This document shows positions 21,986-29,133 of a stretch of 64,000 bases of DNA, piece after piece. The position numbers were made by a program, and so were the translations under genes. The stretch comes from Rhodobacter sp. (GTDB lineage: Bacteria; Pseudomonadota; Alphaproteobacteria; Rhodobacterales; Rhodobacteraceae): NCBI GenBank assembly GCA_020250125.1, contig JADCEL010000054.1, forward strand, positions 1 to 64,000, read 5' to 3'. The notes under the pieces were generated by a model. It was not told where the DNA came from. It did no database searches and worked only from the letters and a program-made list of their open reading frames with translations. Each line of letters begins with the position of its first letter. Position 1 is the first letter of the stretch.

Positions 21986-22275
21986 AAATCAGGGTGCGGA
22001 AGGATCGTCGGGGAAATGGCCATGGGTCCCGGCGCGGCGGTCCATCGCGCCCCGGCCGGAAAATGGCTGTGCCAGCCCGGCCCAATCCAGGGAAGAACCC
22101 TGCCCGCCGACGAAATCCTGCGGACCGGGGTGACAACGCGGCGCTGGGCCCGTGTCGAACCCCGCCCGCCCGACATCACCGACCTGCCGCAAAGGCCGGT
22201 TGTCACCGCCGAGGCCGGTTTCATGACCAGCGCCGTCAGCACCGCGCGCCGGGTGCGCCAAGGCCCGCGCGGCCG

Positions 22276-22674
22276 TCACGCCCCCGGAGTGTCGCCGATT
22301 GCCACGTGCCACCACCGGGGGCGGCGGCTTGCGTAAGAATGGCCGGCAGGCGCAAGCGCCTTGCGGTTCGGCGCATCGAAGCTGCCGATGACCAGGGCGA
22401 CGACCCCGCTGTCATCAAGGGCACCCAGCGTGCTGCCGCAGGTCGGGCAGAAGGCGCGGCTTGACCCCTTGGAAGAGCGCCATGTTGCTGGCGGGCCGCC
22501 GGGGCCGGTCCAGTCCACGTGTCCGGGCGGGAATTCTGCCCAGCACAGGGTCAGCGCCCCCGAATGCCGCTGGCACATCCGGCAGGAACAGGTATGGGGC
22601 GATCCCGCCGGGCCCATGGCCCGGAACCGGATGTGCCCGCACAGGCATCCGCCCTCATATCCGGTGACCGCCAT
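22276..22674 (-). CDS. GFA family protein (glutathione-dependent formaldehyde-activating fold)
   Basis: GGCLCGHIRFRA, CSCRMCQRHSGA, FCPTCGSTL. Confidence 0.9.
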   Translation of the reverse strand: MAVTGYEGGCLCGHIRFRAMGPAGSPHTCSCRMCQRHSGALTLCWAEFPPGHVDWTGPGGPPATWRSSKGSSRAFCPTCGSTLGALDDSGVVALVIGSFDAPNRKALAPAGHSYASRRPRWWHVAIGDTPGA

Positions 22675-22885
22675 CCGACATCCGCCCTTCCAGTGCCTTC
22701 CAAAACGGCACCTATGCGCGGACATATGCCGTTCAAGTGCGCTTCGCCCGATTTCGTAACCTGCAGGCCGGAAAAATTCTTGCCGTCCCTGTTTGCAGAA
22801 CGCAAAGTCTTCGCGCGCTGGAGCAGGATCGGCCTTTCGGGGCGTTCCGGTTCCTTGCGCCGACGCCGGCAGCAGGCAGAGAGCG

Positions 22886-23083
22886 ATGCGCCACGACTGG
22901 ATCTTTGACGTTCTGACCGATCTGCGCAGCTATGCCGTGCAGAACGGACTGCGTGATCTTGCAGAACAGGTCGACATCACCCTGAGCGCGGCGCGGCGGG
23001 ACGTGGCCGCCGCCGACCGGCCCAAGGGCGGTGCGGAGGCCATGCTGCAAGATGAAACACCGGCGCCGCGCCGCAGGCATTGA
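22886..23083 (+). CDS. Small hypothetical protein upstream of helicase
   Basis: MRHDWIFDVLTDLRSYAVQNGLRDLAEQVDITLSAARRDVA. Confidence 0.65.
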   Translation: MRHDWIFDVLTDLRSYAVQNGLRDLAEQVDITLSAARRDVAAADRPKGGAEAMLQDETPAPRRRH

Positions 23084-23131
23084 GGCGCGAAAGCGGTTCC
23101 ACCGCCTGTCCGAACTGCGTAAGGTCGCGCC

Positions 23132-24655
23132 ATGTCCGTGACCCTTCCCATCCTGTCCGAAGATCAGGCCCAAGCCTGGGATCGCCTGTCGCACCAGTTG
23201 CAGGGCATGGGCGTGGACCTGACCGCAGGCACGATCACCCCGCAGGCCGAGGGCAAGGCTTCGGTGCTGGCGGTGGTGGGCAAGGCCGGGTCGGGCAAGA
23301 CGATGCTGCTGGCCAGCCTGTACAAATCCCTGGCTGCTGCGGGTGTCGATATCATTTCCGGCGACTATGAAGGGCGCAGGCGCAAGGACCGCCGGACACT
23401 GGCCATCCTGGCCCCCACGAACAAGGCGGCCTCGGTGCTGCGGCTGCGCGGCGTGCCTGCGACCACGATCCACCGCATCCTTTACACCCCGGTCTACGAC
23501 CCGCAGTACGAACGCATTGCCGAATGGCTGACAGGCAACGGCCCGCGCCCTGCGGTCGAGGGGCTGACCGATCTCGCCCTCGACCGCGCCAAAGCCTTCC
23601 ATGACCAGGTCCCGTCGATTCCGGGTGCCCTGGCCTCGGCGGGCCTGCGCGGATCGGATTTCATCAAGGGCTGGAAGCGCCGGGACGAGCCGCTGGACAT
23701 CGGGCTGGTCGATGAAAGCTCGATGCTGGACGAACGCCAGTTCGACGATCTGCGCGAGATCTTCCCGACGCTGATCCTGTTCGGCGATCCGGCGCAGCTG
23801 GCCCCCGTGGGCCTGTCGGGAGAGATGGTGTTCGACCGCCTGGGGGCCACACGCAAGCTGGCGCTGAAGCGCATCCACCGCCAGGCGGCAGACAACCCGA
23901 TTCTGGATCTGGCCCATGCGCTGGGCAATCCGGAACTTGGCTTTGAGGCCTTCGAACGGATGGTCGAAGAAACCGCAGCCCGTGATCCGCGCGTCATCAT
24001 GGCGCAGCGCGTGAATGCCGATCTGATGGCCCGCTCGCCGGTCCTCGTTTGGCGCAATGTCACCCGCATCCGGCTGATCACCGCCTTTCGCACGGCGCAG
24101 GGCGCGCCGGAGGATCAGCTGATCCCGGGCGAGCCGCTGATCTGCGACGGGATCGAACTGCCCCTGAAACACCGCAAGAAGCGCATCGATCTGGAGGCGC
24201 GCGGCCTGATCAAAGGCGCGCAGGTGATCTACCTTGGCCCCGGCACGCGGGACGGCTTTGCAAAGCTGCATGTGGTGGGCGCGGAAGAACCGCAGGTGTC
24301 CGCCGCATCGATCATCAAGATCGAAAAACCGGATGAAGGTGAGCCTTTCATCCCCTCGGCGGCGCGCATGGGGGCGGTGTTCCTGCACGGGGCTGCGGTG
24401 ACCATCCACAAAGCCCAGGGCAGCCAATGGGAAGATGTGCAGGTCTTTGCCCCCGATCTGTTCGCCGCCGCCCAGGCCGGCCGGGTCGAGGCCGGCGTGC
24501 CCCTGTGGAAACGCCTCGCCTATGTCGCCATCACCCGCGCCGAACAGCGCCTGCACTGGGTGGTGCGCAACCGCCTGGCCCTGCCGGTGGTCCCGCTGGG
24601 GGTGGGCGATTTGCCGCAGAAACCGTCGGCGCTGGCGCTGGCGGCAGGGGATTGA
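23132..24655 (+). CDS. RecD-like ATP-dependent DNA helicase (UvrD/RecD C-terminal domain)
   Basis: Walker A VVGKAGSGKTMLLASL; LVDESSMLDERQF; GDPAQLAPVG; VTIHKAQGSQWEDV; VAITRAEQRLHWVV. Confidence 0.92.
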   Translation: MSVTLPILSEDQAQAWDRLSHQLQGMGVDLTAGTITPQAEGKASVLAVVGKAGSGKTMLLASLYKSLAAAGVDIISGDYEGRRRKDRRTLAILAPTNKAASVLRLRGVPATTIHRILYTPVYDPQYERIAEWLTGNGPRPAVEGLTDLALDRAKAFHDQVPSIPGALASAGLRGSDFIKGWKRRDEPLDIGLVDESSMLDERQFDDLREIFPTLILFGDPAQLAPVGLSGEMVFDRLGATRKLALKRIHRQAADNPILDLAHALGNPELGFEAFERMVEETAARDPRVIMAQRVNADLMARSPVLVWRNVTRIRLITAFRTAQGAPEDQLIPGEPLICDGIELPLKHRKKRIDLEARGLIKGAQVIYLGPGTRDGFAKLHVVGAEEPQVSAASIIKIEKPDEGEPFIPSAARMGAVFLHGAAVTIHKAQGSQWEDVQVFAPDLFAAAQAGRVEAGVPLWKRLAYVAITRAEQRLHWVVRNRLALPVVPLGVGDLPQKPSALALAAGD

Positions 24656-24681
24656 ACCGGGGGAAGCGCCTGACGCGTGTT

Positions 24682-24829
24682 GTGGCTCCCCAGACTCGCC
24701 GTCGCGCAGGATCAGCAGGCCAGCGGCAGGCACGCGCTCGGGCAGCCCGTCACCGCGCAGGGCGGTGACGGGCAACGCCGAAAACCGCGCATGCAGCGCG
24801 GCGAGGATGGTTTCGCGGGGGGTGGGCAT
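24682..24829 (-). pseudogene. N-terminal fragment of phage tail-region gene (often annotated acyl-CoA transferase in Rhodobacteraceae prophages)
   Basis: MPTPRETILAALHARFSALPVTALRGDGLPERVPAAGLLILRDGESGEP, then similarity ends; good SD GAGGGACAG. Confidence 0.65.
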
Positions 24830-24836
24830 CTGTCCC

Positions 24837-25751
24837 TCAAATTCTTAATGCAACCAATTGGCTGTCGGAGTCGGCCTTCTGAGCCTTGACCTCTAGTCGC
24901 AAGCCAATCGATGAAAGCACCTTCAGTACCGTTGTGAATTCTGGATTGCCCTTGGGGTCCAGTGATCGGTAGAGGCTCTCGCGAGCCAGTCCGGTTTCGC
25001 GCGCGACCTGACTCATGCCGTGATCGCGCGCGATCCGGCCTAGCGTTTCTTTCACCGCGGGCGCATCCGAGTGGGCGAGCGCCTCGTTGAGTGCCATGAC
25101 AAGATCGTCGAGCGTCGAAAACTGGGCCGGCGAGGAAGTGTCAGTGTCGTTTGTGCCATCCTTCGCTCTCGGAACGGCGCGCGCATTCTCTATCGTCGAA
25201 AGGAAGTTGGGCTGATCGCTCAGCTCGACCAACTGCCATTCATCTGGCGTCGCGCGTTCCTTTACATCGCGGCGAACCTCGTCGCTGCAATGCGCAATGA
25301 AGGTCCTCCACGCATCCACCGACTTGATGTTAGTGACGTCCTTGGTCGGAACATTGAACAGCACTGCGATCTTTCCGGCAACGGCGAGGCGCAGCACGTT
25401 TAGCACTGTGCCCGGACTCTTTCCGTCCCAGATCATCAGGCCGAAGTCTGCCTCACGCGCCATCTCTCGGTCTTTAGCCGCGTAGAATTGAAACCCCTTC
25501 GCGTGCTTGGGCGCGTCAACGCGACGGGTAAGCCAAGTACCAACATTGTTGCGCGGTGATGCGCCCGAGCAGAAGACAGTGACCCTATCATACTGTTTTT
25601 CGTGAAAGTGTTTCTGGACGGCCTTGTCGGCGCCATTGGCGTCACCGACAATGACGCAATGGCCGCTCGCAACGACATTGTCGAGCCGCTTTTTTACCTC
25701 AAGAGGAAGTTGGGAAACGTGTCGCGAGCCGCCTATGAAAATCGTGTTCAA
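24837..25751 (-). CDS. SLOG-like Rossmann N-terminus fused to addiction-module-antidote-like HTH C-terminus
   Basis: N-term IFIGGSRHVSQL...VIVGDANGADKAVQKHF...ADFGLMIWDGKSPGTVLNV; C-term MALNEALAHSDAPAVKETLGRIARDHGMSQVARETGLARESLYRSLDPKGNPEFTTVLKVLSSIGLRLEV. TTG start overlapping the upstream TGA. Confidence 0.8.
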   Translation of the reverse strand: MNTIFIGGSRHVSQLPLEVKKRLDNVVASGHCVIVGDANGADKAVQKHFHEKQYDRVTVFCSGASPRNNVGTWLTRRVDAPKHAKGFQFYAAKDREMAREADFGLMIWDGKSPGTVLNVLRLAVAGKIAVLFNVPTKDVTNIKSVDAWRTFIAHCSDEVRRDVKERATPDEWQLVELSDQPNFLSTIENARAVPRAKDGTNDTDTSSPAQFSTLDDLVMALNEALAHSDAPAVKETLGRIARDHGMSQVARETGLARESLYRSLDPKGNPEFTTVLKVLSSIGLRLEVKAQKADSDSQLVALRI

Positions 25752-26341
25752 TGGTTGCTCCTTGTCTTCGTAATTGTGACGGCTCGGACGATTAATGCTT
25801 GGCCTGGGCCGAGTAGCTGATCTGTGATGGCGTTCATTGTGGTCCCCGACCTAAAGAGATCGTCGAAAAGCAGAATACTGCGTCCCTTTGTCTGCGTCGC
25901 ATCGATCTGATAAAGGCCGTCCACTTGCTTCCTCCGCTCATCCGGATCGGTCACATTCTTGAGTTGCGTCGTCGGGCGAGTCGTAGTGATGCAAGACAGC
26001 ACCGGAACACCAAGAGCAATTCCAATCCCCACGGCCAAGACAATGACGGGCTGCAATGTGCGCTCGTGCGAAGGCGGTACCGGAACGATACTATCGAACT
26101 TGTCCCGACGTGCAGCGAGATAGTTGGCAACTGTTTCGATGATCGGCCCAGCTGCGTCCTTGTCGGCGCGATTCTTCAGCCGATAGAGAAGCTCGGCGAT
26201 CTCCGGTCGCACGGTGTCGAACTGCATACGTCCAAATTCGTTGTATCCTATCGGCGTGCTGCTGGTCGTGTGAAGATCAAGGGCAACGCCTGACTTCCAG
26301 CGGCCCTCAATTTTGATGGGATTGATCTTTACTATTGCCAT
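25748..26341 (-). CDS. Phosphoribosyltransferase (ComFC/PRTase type I-like)
   Basis: FDSIVPVPPSHERTLQP and PRPP-binding-loop-like SILLFDDLFRSGTTMNA; 4-bp overlap with next gene. Confidence 0.85.
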   Translation of the reverse strand: MAIVKINPIKIEGRWKSGVALDLHTTSSTPIGYNEFGRMQFDTVRPEIAELLYRLKNRADKDAAGPIIETVANYLAARRDKFDSIVPVPPSHERTLQPVIVLAVGIGIALGVPVLSCITTTRPTTQLKNVTDPDERRKQVDGLYQIDATQTKGRSILLFDDLFRSGTTMNAITDQLLGPGQALIVRAVTITKTRSNH

Positions 26342-26363
26342 TCGACCTCCGTAGCCAACGTCA

Positions 26364-26392
26364 ACTGTAGCCTACAGGCTACAGATTGACAA
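26364..26392 (-). promoter_or_regulatory. Promoter with embedded palindromic operator for the PRTase-SLOG/HTH operon
   Basis: Minus strand TTGTCA-N17-TACAGT (-35 at 26387-26392, -10 at 26364-26369); perfect palindrome CTGTAGCC-taca-GGCTACAG (26365-26384) in the spacer and over the -10. Confidence 0.7.
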
Positions 26393-26468
26393 GGCCCGGT
26401 CGCGGCCCAACCCTACGGAGGGTCGAGAGGAGAGCCCGGCCAGTTGTCACGCGGTATCATACCCGTCC

Positions 26469-26945
26469 CTACACCCACCTCGCCACGATCAGACGCAGCA
26501 CACCGTCCACTGCCCGCTCTGCATCCCGCGCCAGATCCAGCCGCTTCGACAGCTTGACCTGCGGCACCAGCAGGAAGATCGACGCGGTAACGACGCCATG
26601 CCCGGTCTTCGACCGCGACGCCACCGCCCGGCCCTTGGTGTTCAACCGCCCCTCGGTGACCAGCAGGCTTGGCCCCCTTCGGCGATAGATGAACCGCAGG
26701 CGCAACCCGGTCCGGCGTTCCCATTCGCCGGGGGTGGTCGAGGCACTGCCTCGACGGCCGCCAAGGGTGGGCTTCCCCGCCGCTGGCGTGGAGATCGCGA
26801 GCCAGAACCCGTTCTTCGAACAGATCAGCGGGCCGGTGTCATGCGCGCCGATGATCACCGGGTCGTTCGACCAGACCAGCGCCGCCGCGTTCAGTCTTTC
26901 GCCGGATTTCGGGAAGCTGGCTGGACCTGCACCGGTTTCGTTCCG
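26469..26945 (-). pseudogene. DUF6441 family phage protein, N-terminally truncated
   Basis: ASFPKSGERLNAAALVWSNDPVIIGAHDTGPLICSKNGFWLAISTPAAGK...WERRTGLRLRFIYRRRGPSLLV...IFLLVPQVKLSKRLDLARDAE. Confidence 0.75.
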
Positions 26946-27013
26946 GTCTTTTGAGGGCGATACTCGCTACCAAGGGTCGGGCCATGCGTCCGGCGGATAA
27001 TGGGCGTTTCTTT

Positions 27014-27092
27014 AAGGCTTCGACCAGCGGGAAAGGCAATTGTCATGACAATGTTGCCGTCGAAAGCGTCTTCAAGTCGCTGAGGGCCGAAC
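27014..27092 (+). mobile_element. IS3-family transposase (OrfB) fragment
   Basis: KASTSGKGNCHDNVAVESVFKSLRAE resembles the catalytic C-terminal GNCxDNAxxESFFxxLKxE signature. Confidence 0.7.
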
Positions 27093-27564
27093 CAGGGCAA
27101 TCGCCAGAAGCGTGTTGCGGGGTCCGGCCCGCGATTTGCGCGATTCATCGGCGCGCGCAATGCCCAACCGTTCCGGCATGTTCCGCGCACCGTTTCCCGG
27201 CCCCTTTCCTGCCCCTGATGATCCGCGCCATCAGGCCGGGGGCCGGATTGGCGGGTGCGACGGCGGGGGTCGGGCGGGGATCAGAGTATGAACGAAAAGT
27301 AAAGGCGCGCCGCCAACCCCTTGATTCCAAACGCCCCGGAGTCTGTCCCACAGTGGGCAGCGTGTTTATCCCTCACCCCGATCCCCCCGGCCAAAGCCTC
27401 CCCGCCTGCCGAAAAGCCGCTGCAAGGGGCAACGGCTCCCTTGGACCACTCCTCACAAGAGTCACCGGACATCTTTCAGGCGATTACCTTGGGGATTGAC
27501 GCCACCCTTGGCATGGCGCCCGTGCCGCCCTATTCTGCCGCCAGTCTGCCGAAAGGAAGCCCCG

Positions 27565-27801
27565 ATGCGCTGCGTCTTTGTCCAGTTCCGCTGCACCCCC
27601 GGCAAGACATATGAGGTGGCGACCGCGATCTATGACCGCGAAGTGGTGTCCGAGCTGTATTCGACATCGGGGGAATATGACCTGATCGCCAAGGTCTATA
27701 TCCCGGAGGATCAGGATGTGGGCCATTTCCTGTCCGCCCGCCTGTTCGACATTCCCGGTATCGTGCGCACCCTGACGACCATGACCTTCAAGGCATTCTG
27801 A
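27565..27801 (+). CDS. Stand-alone Lrp/AsnC ligand-binding (RAM) domain protein
   Basis: MRCVFVQFRCTPGKTYEVATAIYDREVVSELYSTSGEYDLIAKVYIPEDQDVGHFL; no HTH. Confidence 0.88.
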   Translation: MRCVFVQFRCTPGKTYEVATAIYDREVVSELYSTSGEYDLIAKVYIPEDQDVGHFLSARLFDIPGIVRTLTTMTFKAF

Positions 27802-27825
27802 CAGGGTGCCGAAAAGGCAGTCCCG

Positions 27826-29133
27826 CTAACGGCCAAGGCAGGTGGCCAGGCGGCGGAAGCTGCCTTCAATTCCGTCCCGGGCATCCTCTGCCAGAAAACC
27901 GTCCAGCGCGGGCCAGACCTTGATCGCCCGGTCGATCAGCGGGTCCGATCCGGCAACGTAAAGCCCGGCCTGGATCATCAGTTCCGCCCTGTCATAGGCC
28001 CCCAGCAGCTTGCGCGCCTCGGCGATCAGCTGGTTTTCGGCTTCTGACGCCGCCGCAGGCAGGCTGCGCGAGACCGAGCGCAGCAGGTCAACCGCCGGGT
28101 AGCGCCCGCGTTCCGCAATCCTGCGGTCCAGAACGACATGCCCGTCCAGCGCGCCGCGCAGGATGTCGGCCACGGGTTCTTCCATGTCAGAGCCGGGCAC
28201 CAGAACGGAAAACACGCCCGTGATGTCACCGCTGCCTTGCGGACCCGGCCCGGCCCGTTCGGCAAGCGACATGATCAAATGCGCAACCGACGGCGGATAG
28301 CCGCGCAGGCTGGCCTCTTCGCCGGCGGCAAGGGCCACTTCGCGATGGGCTTCGGCAAACCGCGTGACCGAATCCGCCAGGAACAGCACATGCAGGCCCT
28401 GATCGCGAAAGTGTTCGGCCACCGCCATGGCCGCCCAGGCGCAGCGCCGCCGGATCAGCGGCGACTGATCCGAGGTTGCCGCCACGATGACCGACCGCTT
28501 CATGCCCGCGGTCCCCAGCACGGTTTCGGTGAAATCGCGCAGTTCCCGGCCGCGCTCGCCGATCAGGGCAATCACCACCACATCGGCAGCAACGCCCCGC
28601 GCGAATTTGGCAAGAAGCGATGATTTTCCAACACCGGAGCCTGCGAAAAGACCGATGCGCTGGCCCTGCACCAGCGGAAGAAGGGTGTCGAAGGCCGCAA
28701 CCCCGGTGGACAGCCGCGCGCCCAGTCTGCCGCGTGACGCCGCCGGCGGGGCCGCGCCCCGCAGCCCGCGGGGCCGCGACCCGCGCAGCAAAGGGCGGCC
28801 GTCCAGCGGTGCGCCGAAGGGATCAATGATCCGGCCGATCCAATGGTCATCCGGCGCCAGGTCTGCCCGGCCCAGCAGTTCGACCGCGTCACCGATGGCC
28901 AGACCTTCGATCGCGCCATCGGACAGGACAGTGACCTGATCGCGCGCCAGATTAAGAACCTCGCCCCCCACGGGGCCGGTTCTTGCCAGAATCATCACCC
29001 GGTCGCCCAGCGCGGCCACGTCCGACAAACCGCTGACCGACAGGGTTCCACGACCGATCCCGACAACCTGCCCGACACGATAAACCTTTGAAACATAAAT
29101 TATTTCTGCGCGAAGTGGGCTGAATACATCCAT
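27826..29133 (-). CDS. fliI: Flagellum-specific ATP synthase FliI
   Basis: Walker A GLFAGSGVGKSSLLAKFARG; ALIGERGRELRDF; LFLADSVTRFAEAHREVAL. Confidence 0.94.
   Translation of the reverse strand: MDVFSPLRAEIIYVSKVYRVGQVVGIGRGTLSVSGLSDVAALGDRVMILARTGPVGGEVLNLARDQVTVLSDGAIEGLAIGDAVELLGRADLAPDDHWIGRIIDPFGAPLDGRPLLRGSRPRGLRGAAPPAASRGRLGARLSTGVAAFDTLLPLVQGQRIGLFAGSGVGKSSLLAKFARGVAADVVVIALIGERGRELRDFTETVLGTAGMKRSVIVAATSDQSPLIRRRCAWAAMAVAEHFRDQGLHVLFLADSVTRFAEAHREVALAAGEEASLRGYPPSVAHLIMSLAERAGPGPQGSGDITGVFSVLVPGSDMEEPVADILRGALDGHVVLDRRIAERGRYPAVDLLRSVSRSLPAAASEAENQLIAEARKLLGAYDRAELMIQAGLYVAGSDPLIDRAIKVWPALDGFLAEDARDGIEGSFRRLATCLGR

Follow-up and report, generated by a model that had tools for sequence, protein, structure and literature searches.

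Two small overlapping genes on the minus strand of a 64,000-nucleotide stretch of Rhodobacter sp. DNA (the window) raise the question of what a phosphoribosyltransferase (PRTase) and a partner protein joining a SLOG-like domain to an HTH do together. A sequence-only reading of positions 24,837 to 26,392 had proposed an undescribed, nucleotide-centred conflict or regulatory module. Both open reading frames were located there (Table 1), and the overlap that had suggested translational coupling was confirmed as 4 bp (25748–25751, TTGA), in which the TTG start of the SLOG-HTH gene lies over the TGA stop of the PRTase gene. The DNA is also less GC-rich than its surroundings, as had been remarked: the operon has a GC content of 0.560 compared with 0.660 for the window, the lowest value among all 625 equal-length sliding stretches. 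The two genes, with a single predicted promoter upstream, are predicted to form one operon.

Table 1. Positions of the module, its domains and control sequences, and the insertion that carries it, in the numbering of the window.
Feature	Position	Strand	Remarks
PRTase gene	25748..26341	-	ATG start, TGA stop, 197 aa; first in operon; ORF call
SLOG-HTH gene	24837..25751	-	TTG start, 304 aa; proposed antitoxin/autorepressor; ORF call
SLOG Rossmann domain (about residues 1-170)	25242..25751	-	common to all relatives; family alignment
HI1420/HigA-type HTH (about residues 214-291)	24879..25112	-	PF21716, TIGR02684, phrog_4268
Putative palindromic operator TGTAGCCTACAGGCTACA	26366..26383		5' of PRTase gene
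Predicted promoter TTGTCA, 17 nt, TACAGT	26364..26392	-	consensus scan, 9/12; encloses operator
2835-bp insertion carrying the module	24656..27490		empty site in same-genus genome G277
Left 9-bp direct repeat GGGGATTGA	24647..24655		possible target-site duplication
Right 9-bp direct repeat GGGGATTGA	27491..27499		possible target-site duplication
DUF6441 (phage-type family) remnant	26469-26858	-	inside 2.8-kb insert
ORF	26951-27499	+	in 2.8-kb insert region

The PRPP loop noted in the first protein is present as FDDLFRSGTT, with aspartates D160/D161 invariant in 49 family members, and an AlphaFold2 model (pLDDT 92) matched PurF, APRT, H. pylori ComF and ShosT (8zvb/c/d) in the PDB, with a Foldseek value of 4e-5 for ShosT 8zvd. 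The 197-aa product consists of the PRTase only, and no helicase was found in it. The PADLOC models for the PRTase region of PsyrT (2e-15) and for ShosT (2e-4) matched the window protein, and each of the two toxins was matched by 23 of the 23 family members tested. Profile–profile comparison gave probabilities of 99.9% for ComF, 98.2% for the PsyrT PRTase and 72% for ShosT. The closeness to housekeeping ComF, which is not toxic, is a counterpoint to reading this protein as a toxin; it would suit an ordinary ComF-like salvage or competence PRTase that is accompanied by a regulator and has no conflict role, as would the “ComF family” annotation of some family PRTases on plasmids. That explanation is nevertheless highly improbable, in view of the score of 37.6 bits against the ComF model TIGR00201 (cut-off, 233.55), the sharp gap between family PRTases (215–284 bits) and housekeeping ComF (≤73 bits) in 387 Alphaproteobacteria, and the sparse distribution, mobile context and decay described below.

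For the second protein, an AlphaFold2 model built on an alignment of 63 relatives (pLDDT 88) comprised a Rossmann domain at residues 1–170, a low-confidence linker and then the HTH. Its sole PDB match with E < 0.001 was ShosA of E. coli APEC O1 (8zva, E = 2.5e-4), with DprA, MoCo carriers, LOG proteins and the SLOG domain of ThsA ranking next, so that the “SLOG” label, like the “PRTase” label, is supported by the predicted fold. Only fold comparison achieved this: the N-terminus had nothing above cut-off in Pfam (weak DprA PF02481, E = 0.005), PDB sequence searches with the window proteins and profiles returned no useful SLOG match, and PADLOC yielded weak ShosA and PsyrA matches only. Profile–profile probabilities were 24% for ShosA, 2% for PsyrA and 0.1% for DprA, compared with 97–99% for ShosA and PsyrA against DprA (ShosA–DprA, 98.8%); by this measure, the SLOG protein is not detectably of the DprA family. 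PHROG 289 (“GTP-binding domain”, 500 positions) matched 22 of 23 SLOG members, and the family alignment contained invariant G8, GDA..G.D, RNN, KD, G104, W108, S.G and N118.

SLOG/LOG enzymes are phosphoribohydrolases, and the LOG catalytic motif is PGGxGTxxE, in which the glutamate is catalytic. That motif is absent from the SLOG domain, where the corresponding site reads S112-x-G114-T115-x-x-N118; S, G and N do not vary among 63 sequences, and Asn takes the glutamate position. The site bears on a scheme in which the PRTase would convert PRPP into a toxic nucleotide, to be destroyed or sequestered by the SLOG domain, which would not bind the PRTase itself. The known activity of SLOG/LOG proteins, the conserved nucleotide-site-like residues and the lack of a detectable DprA relationship are in keeping with such a metabolite-neutralising antitoxin. 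It is judged quite unlikely, however, given the invariant Asn and the precedent of RqlI, which restrains RqlH through direct contact (PMC4670107).

Whether the two genes belong together was addressed by PRTase-anchored searches, which avoid the bias of searching only near SLOG. An intact SLOG gene was positioned directly downstream of 34 of 35 intact family PRTases from several phyla (6/6 in 387 Alphaproteobacteria, 10/11 in 250 Pseudomonas and 18/18 in viral contigs); the Pseudomonas set contained 12 family PRTases, 11 of them intact. The possibility that the pairing is unique to this genome was therefore rejected by its recurrence in several phyla, and, given the complete pairs listed below, the arrangement is not due to chance. 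Prevalence is low (6/387 Alphaproteobacteria and about 17/250 Pseudomonas), which fits accessory modules. The closest full pairs, with 79–87% protein identity, were found in two other Rhodobacteraceae, pairs with 55–65% identity on plasmids of Xanthomonas, Agrobacterium, Brucella and Rhizobium, and more distant pairs on plasmids of Klebsiella, E. coli, Acinetobacter, Sinorhizobium, Roseomonas, Methylorubrum, Sagittula and Listeria. A genome scan recovered 80 SLOG loci, including loci in Acidobacteria, Myxococcales, Eremiobacterota and Firmicutes. GenBank phages contained no full relative of the PRTase or of SLOG-HTH; the HTH only was matched, in three Pasteurella phages. On the plasmids of A. 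fabrum and B. anthropi (L025 and L026), a few genes separate the module from a CBASS CD-NTase/patatin pair, and the module also adjoins a VapC-type gene there.

The module is mobile, being found on plasmids, in prophages and on chromosomes of many bacteria, and in the window its insertion is recent. In a genome of the same genus (G277), the counterparts of window positions 22233–24655 and 27491–27826 are contiguous and the module is absent. The insertion is bounded by 9-bp direct repeats, and no terminal inverted repeats were found at it. Mesobacterium (G153) shares window positions 24686–26922 at 83%, including the DUF6441 remnant upstream of the operon, and the plus-strand ORF on the other side of this remnant presumably contains a transposase-like stretch.

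Which gene would be the toxin is indicated by the way in which the pair decays. At 26 SLOG loci, the SLOG gene is intact and the PRTase gene is truncated, frameshifted or missing (19 from the genome scan, 1 viral and 6 Pseudomonas); these loci span at least nine genera, although Pseudomonas contributes disproportionately, its sample may share loci with the genome scan, some frameshifts in MAGs may be assembly errors and the loci do not represent phylogenetically independent events. A single Pseudomonas locus (L166:1396–2064) showed the reverse, an intact PRTase with no SLOG gene, and there the family-invariant K128 is lost. Because the PRTase decays while SLOG is kept, and the reverse occurs about once, this one-sided pattern points to a PRTase toxin and a SLOG antitoxin, and the ComF/PsyrT-like PRTase is most likely the toxin. 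The earlier suggestion of a toxin-equivalent activity in one of the two domains, SLOG or PRTase, is thus upheld for the PRTase and turned around for SLOG. The opposite division of labour, with toxicity or effector action in SLOG and protection by the PRTase, could appeal to the SLOG domains of conflict systems such as ThsA, to which the fold matches. We regard it as very improbable, since intact SLOG genes without a PRTase are common and intact PRTases without SLOG nearly absent, and since SLOG carries a DNA-binding domain, as antitoxins do, and in one case is fused to the YhfG antitoxin. In that case, from Thiothrix lacustris (L108:1165–2488), the fusion gene is followed by a Fic/Doc gene and the PRTase is reduced to a 27-aa remnant behind an rve transposase; YhfG is the Fic antitoxin, and the locus looks like a SLOG antitoxin hitched to another toxin–antitoxin system. 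For PRTase-less SLOG loci of Anoxybacillus, an apparent exchange of partner was rejected, the upstream ORF being antisense to an HsdM gene.

The C-terminal domain is an HTH of the HigA/HI1420 type, as had been recognized, with scores above the curated cut-offs (PF21716, 69.9 bits with a cut-off of 27; TIGR02684, 80.8 bits with a cut-off of 53.7). All relatives have the SLOG core, whereas most of them lack the HTH. In a tree of the SLOG core, the HI1420 HTH is confined to one well-supported clade (26/30 of its rows) and the unrelated HTH_37 to another, and on an A. vitis plasmid HTH_37 is a separate third gene. By this distribution, the HTH is a plug-in domain acquired at least twice.

Each type of HTH is accompanied by its own palindrome. 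In the window, the palindrome is located between the −35 and −10 hexamers of the predicted promoter, has no second exact copy in the 3.28-Mb genome, and is adjoined by a CTTG that is invariant in eight aligned loci. The pattern TGTARCC-N4-GGYTACA (≤1 mismatch) precedes the operon at 25/28 HI1420-HTH loci, 0/12 HTH_37 loci and 1/96 HTH-less loci, and the palindrome ATACAARATTTTGTAT precedes it at 11/12 HTH_37 loci and at none elsewhere, counts that include a few loci fetched twice. Since the type of HTH tracks its own palindrome, and the one in the window falls within the predicted promoter and has no other copy in the genome, the likeliest function of the HTH is repression of its own operon, not the reporting of a signal. 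The sequence-only reading proposed a signal circuit: a nucleotide synthesised or salvaged by the PRTase would be bound or cleaved by the SLOG domain, and the HTH would relay it to the transcription of other genes. This circuit draws on the nucleotide-binding SLOG folds of ThsA, TRPM and LOG and on the fusion of SLOG to the HTH in the clade of the window. It is distinctly improbable: the HTH is absent from most relatives, no exact operator occurs in the genome outside the promoter of the operon itself, and the PRTase is often lost while SLOG is kept, which is unexpected for a sensor of the PRTase product.

The source of the HTH and its operator was suggested by stand-alone antidotes. Two separate HI1420 antidote genes from the same bacterial family have an exact match to the window operator pattern upstream (L012:1486–2100 and L013:1480–2093), and these are the stand-alone genes with the top HTH scores against the window HTH. 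In L012, all 18 bp are identical to the window operator and are located directly before a Gp49-type toxin gene, which separates them from the antidote gene. Because a Gp49/HI1420 operon shares the operator and has a top-scoring HTH, the two elements most likely moved together out of a conventional toxin–antitoxin operon; common ancestry within clades explains part of the association between HTH and operator in these comparisons, but not the match to the Gp49 operon. The recognition-helix region RESLYRAL is common to the window-type HTH and the L012 and L013 antidotes, and the L014 antidote, which is without the operator, has REALYKAL. As relatives of the whole module, the stand-alone HI1420 HTH matches were rejected, being separate antidote genes, two of which are clearly in Gp49/RelE-like toxin–antitoxin operons.

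We conclude that the module is probably a mobile PRTase/SLOG toxin–antitoxin operon in which the SLOG-HTH protein is also a self-repressor, and the earlier designation as a conflict-type module is to that extent correct. By analogy with ShosT and the PRTase domain of RqlH, the unrestrained PRTase would be toxic, most likely through misuse of PRPP and disturbance of nucleotide pools. The SLOG domain would restrain it, most likely by direct binding, as RqlI acts on RqlH. The HI1420-type HTH would dimerise on the palindrome and repress the operon, a step for which the comparative evidence is strong. The PRTase would be released once the antitoxin is lost or inactivated, as might happen when a phage infects or a plasmid is lost, and the role of the module may be phage defence or addiction. 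The mechanism of neutralisation may differ from that of DprA-type antitoxins, because SLOG is unlike DprA by profile and its match to ShosA is weak (24%).

The precedents for these steps come from PRTase systems that have been described. When not restrained by RqlI, the PRTase domain of RqlH is genotoxic, and the two proteins co-precipitate (PMC4670107); a DprA plus PRTase pair blocks T7 and lambda (PMC9122126); and ShosT disturbs purine metabolism (review, PMC12593503). ShosTA (8zva–8zvd), a defence pair of P2-like phages (PMC9122126), resembles the module in its stand-alone PRTase toxin, SLOG-fold antitoxin and mobile context, and its structures provide the top PDB fold match to the SLOG protein and a good match to the PRTase. 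However, the order in Pseudomonas loci is shosA-shosT, whereas in the module the PRTase gene is first; ShosA, at about 310 aa, has a clear relationship to DprA, whereas the SLOG core is about 175 aa and not DprA by profile; and the module has an HI1420 HTH and operator, unlike ShosTA. PsyrTA and RqlHI share with the module a toxin-first order and a homologous PRTase domain (PADLOC, 2e-15; profile, 98%), several PsyrTA loci also have a 4-bp overlap, and RqlI, like SLOG-HTH, ends in an HTH (PMC4670107). Their toxin, however, is a RecQ-like helicase plus PRTase, whereas the module PRTase has no helicase, and their DprA-like antitoxin belongs to a family different from the much shorter SLOG. Membership of ShosTA was therefore rejected on antitoxin family and gene order, and that of PsyrTA on antitoxin family and the missing helicase; by these comparisons, the module would work like ShosTA, PsyrTA and RqlHI but belong to none of them.

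The type II toxin–antitoxin pair HI1419/HI1420 (Gp49/HigB-type) has the same HTH family, the toxin-first order and, once (L012), an identical operator, but its toxin is a Gp49/RelE-like protein, whereas that of the module is proposed to be a PRTase restrained by a SLOG domain. ComF/ComFC is the nearest housekeeping profile to the module PRTase, whose predicted fold resembles H. pylori ComF, and it is set apart by the gap in bit scores and by the partner gene and sparse, mobile distribution of the module. Pfam, PADLOC, NCBIfam and the papers searched contained no named description of the module; a DefensePredictor figure legend names a PRTase system. The term “undescribed” accordingly holds for the SLOG family and the HTH plug-in and not for PRTase/DprA-type toxin–antitoxin pairs, which are known from ShosTA, PsyrTA and RqlHI; what appears new here, as judged from sequence comparison, is the SLOG antitoxin family and the plug-in.

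The SLOG half has no Pfam model above cut-off, and the PRTase reaches PADLOC through the PsyrT and ShosT models only. With a core of 197 + 175 aa, the module is a compact test case for the killing mechanism of PRTase toxins and their restraint by SLOG folds, a question that also applies to PsyrTA, RqlHI and PRTase retrons. The HTH-plus-operator plug-ins, with one core, two unrelated HTHs and two matching operators, provide a clean natural example of an antitoxin gaining autoregulation as a module. In its widest form, this would make the module a representative of a third widespread PRTase toxin–antitoxin or defence lineage, in which a non-DprA SLOG protein counteracts the PRTase by binding or breaking down the nucleotide that it makes and DNA-binding domains with their operators are swapped in from conventional toxin–antitoxin operons, a generalization that we hold to be unlikely as a whole.

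SLOG genes were also encountered in other settings. Diverged stand-alone genes without a PRTase (L028, L029, L030 and similar loci) are carried by conjugative plasmids of Mesorhizobium, Methylobacterium and Sphingobium, and are possibly orphan antitoxins that counter a resident module. In a Lysobacteraceae MAG (L066:5001–7352), an in-frame fusion (784 aa) joins SLOG to an N6_N4 DNA methyltransferase, and an intact PRTase gene lies upstream; in a Chloracidobacterium MAG (L096:3048–5552), a SLOG gene without a PRTase is located directly behind genes for a D12 methyltransferase and a SacI-like restriction endonuclease.
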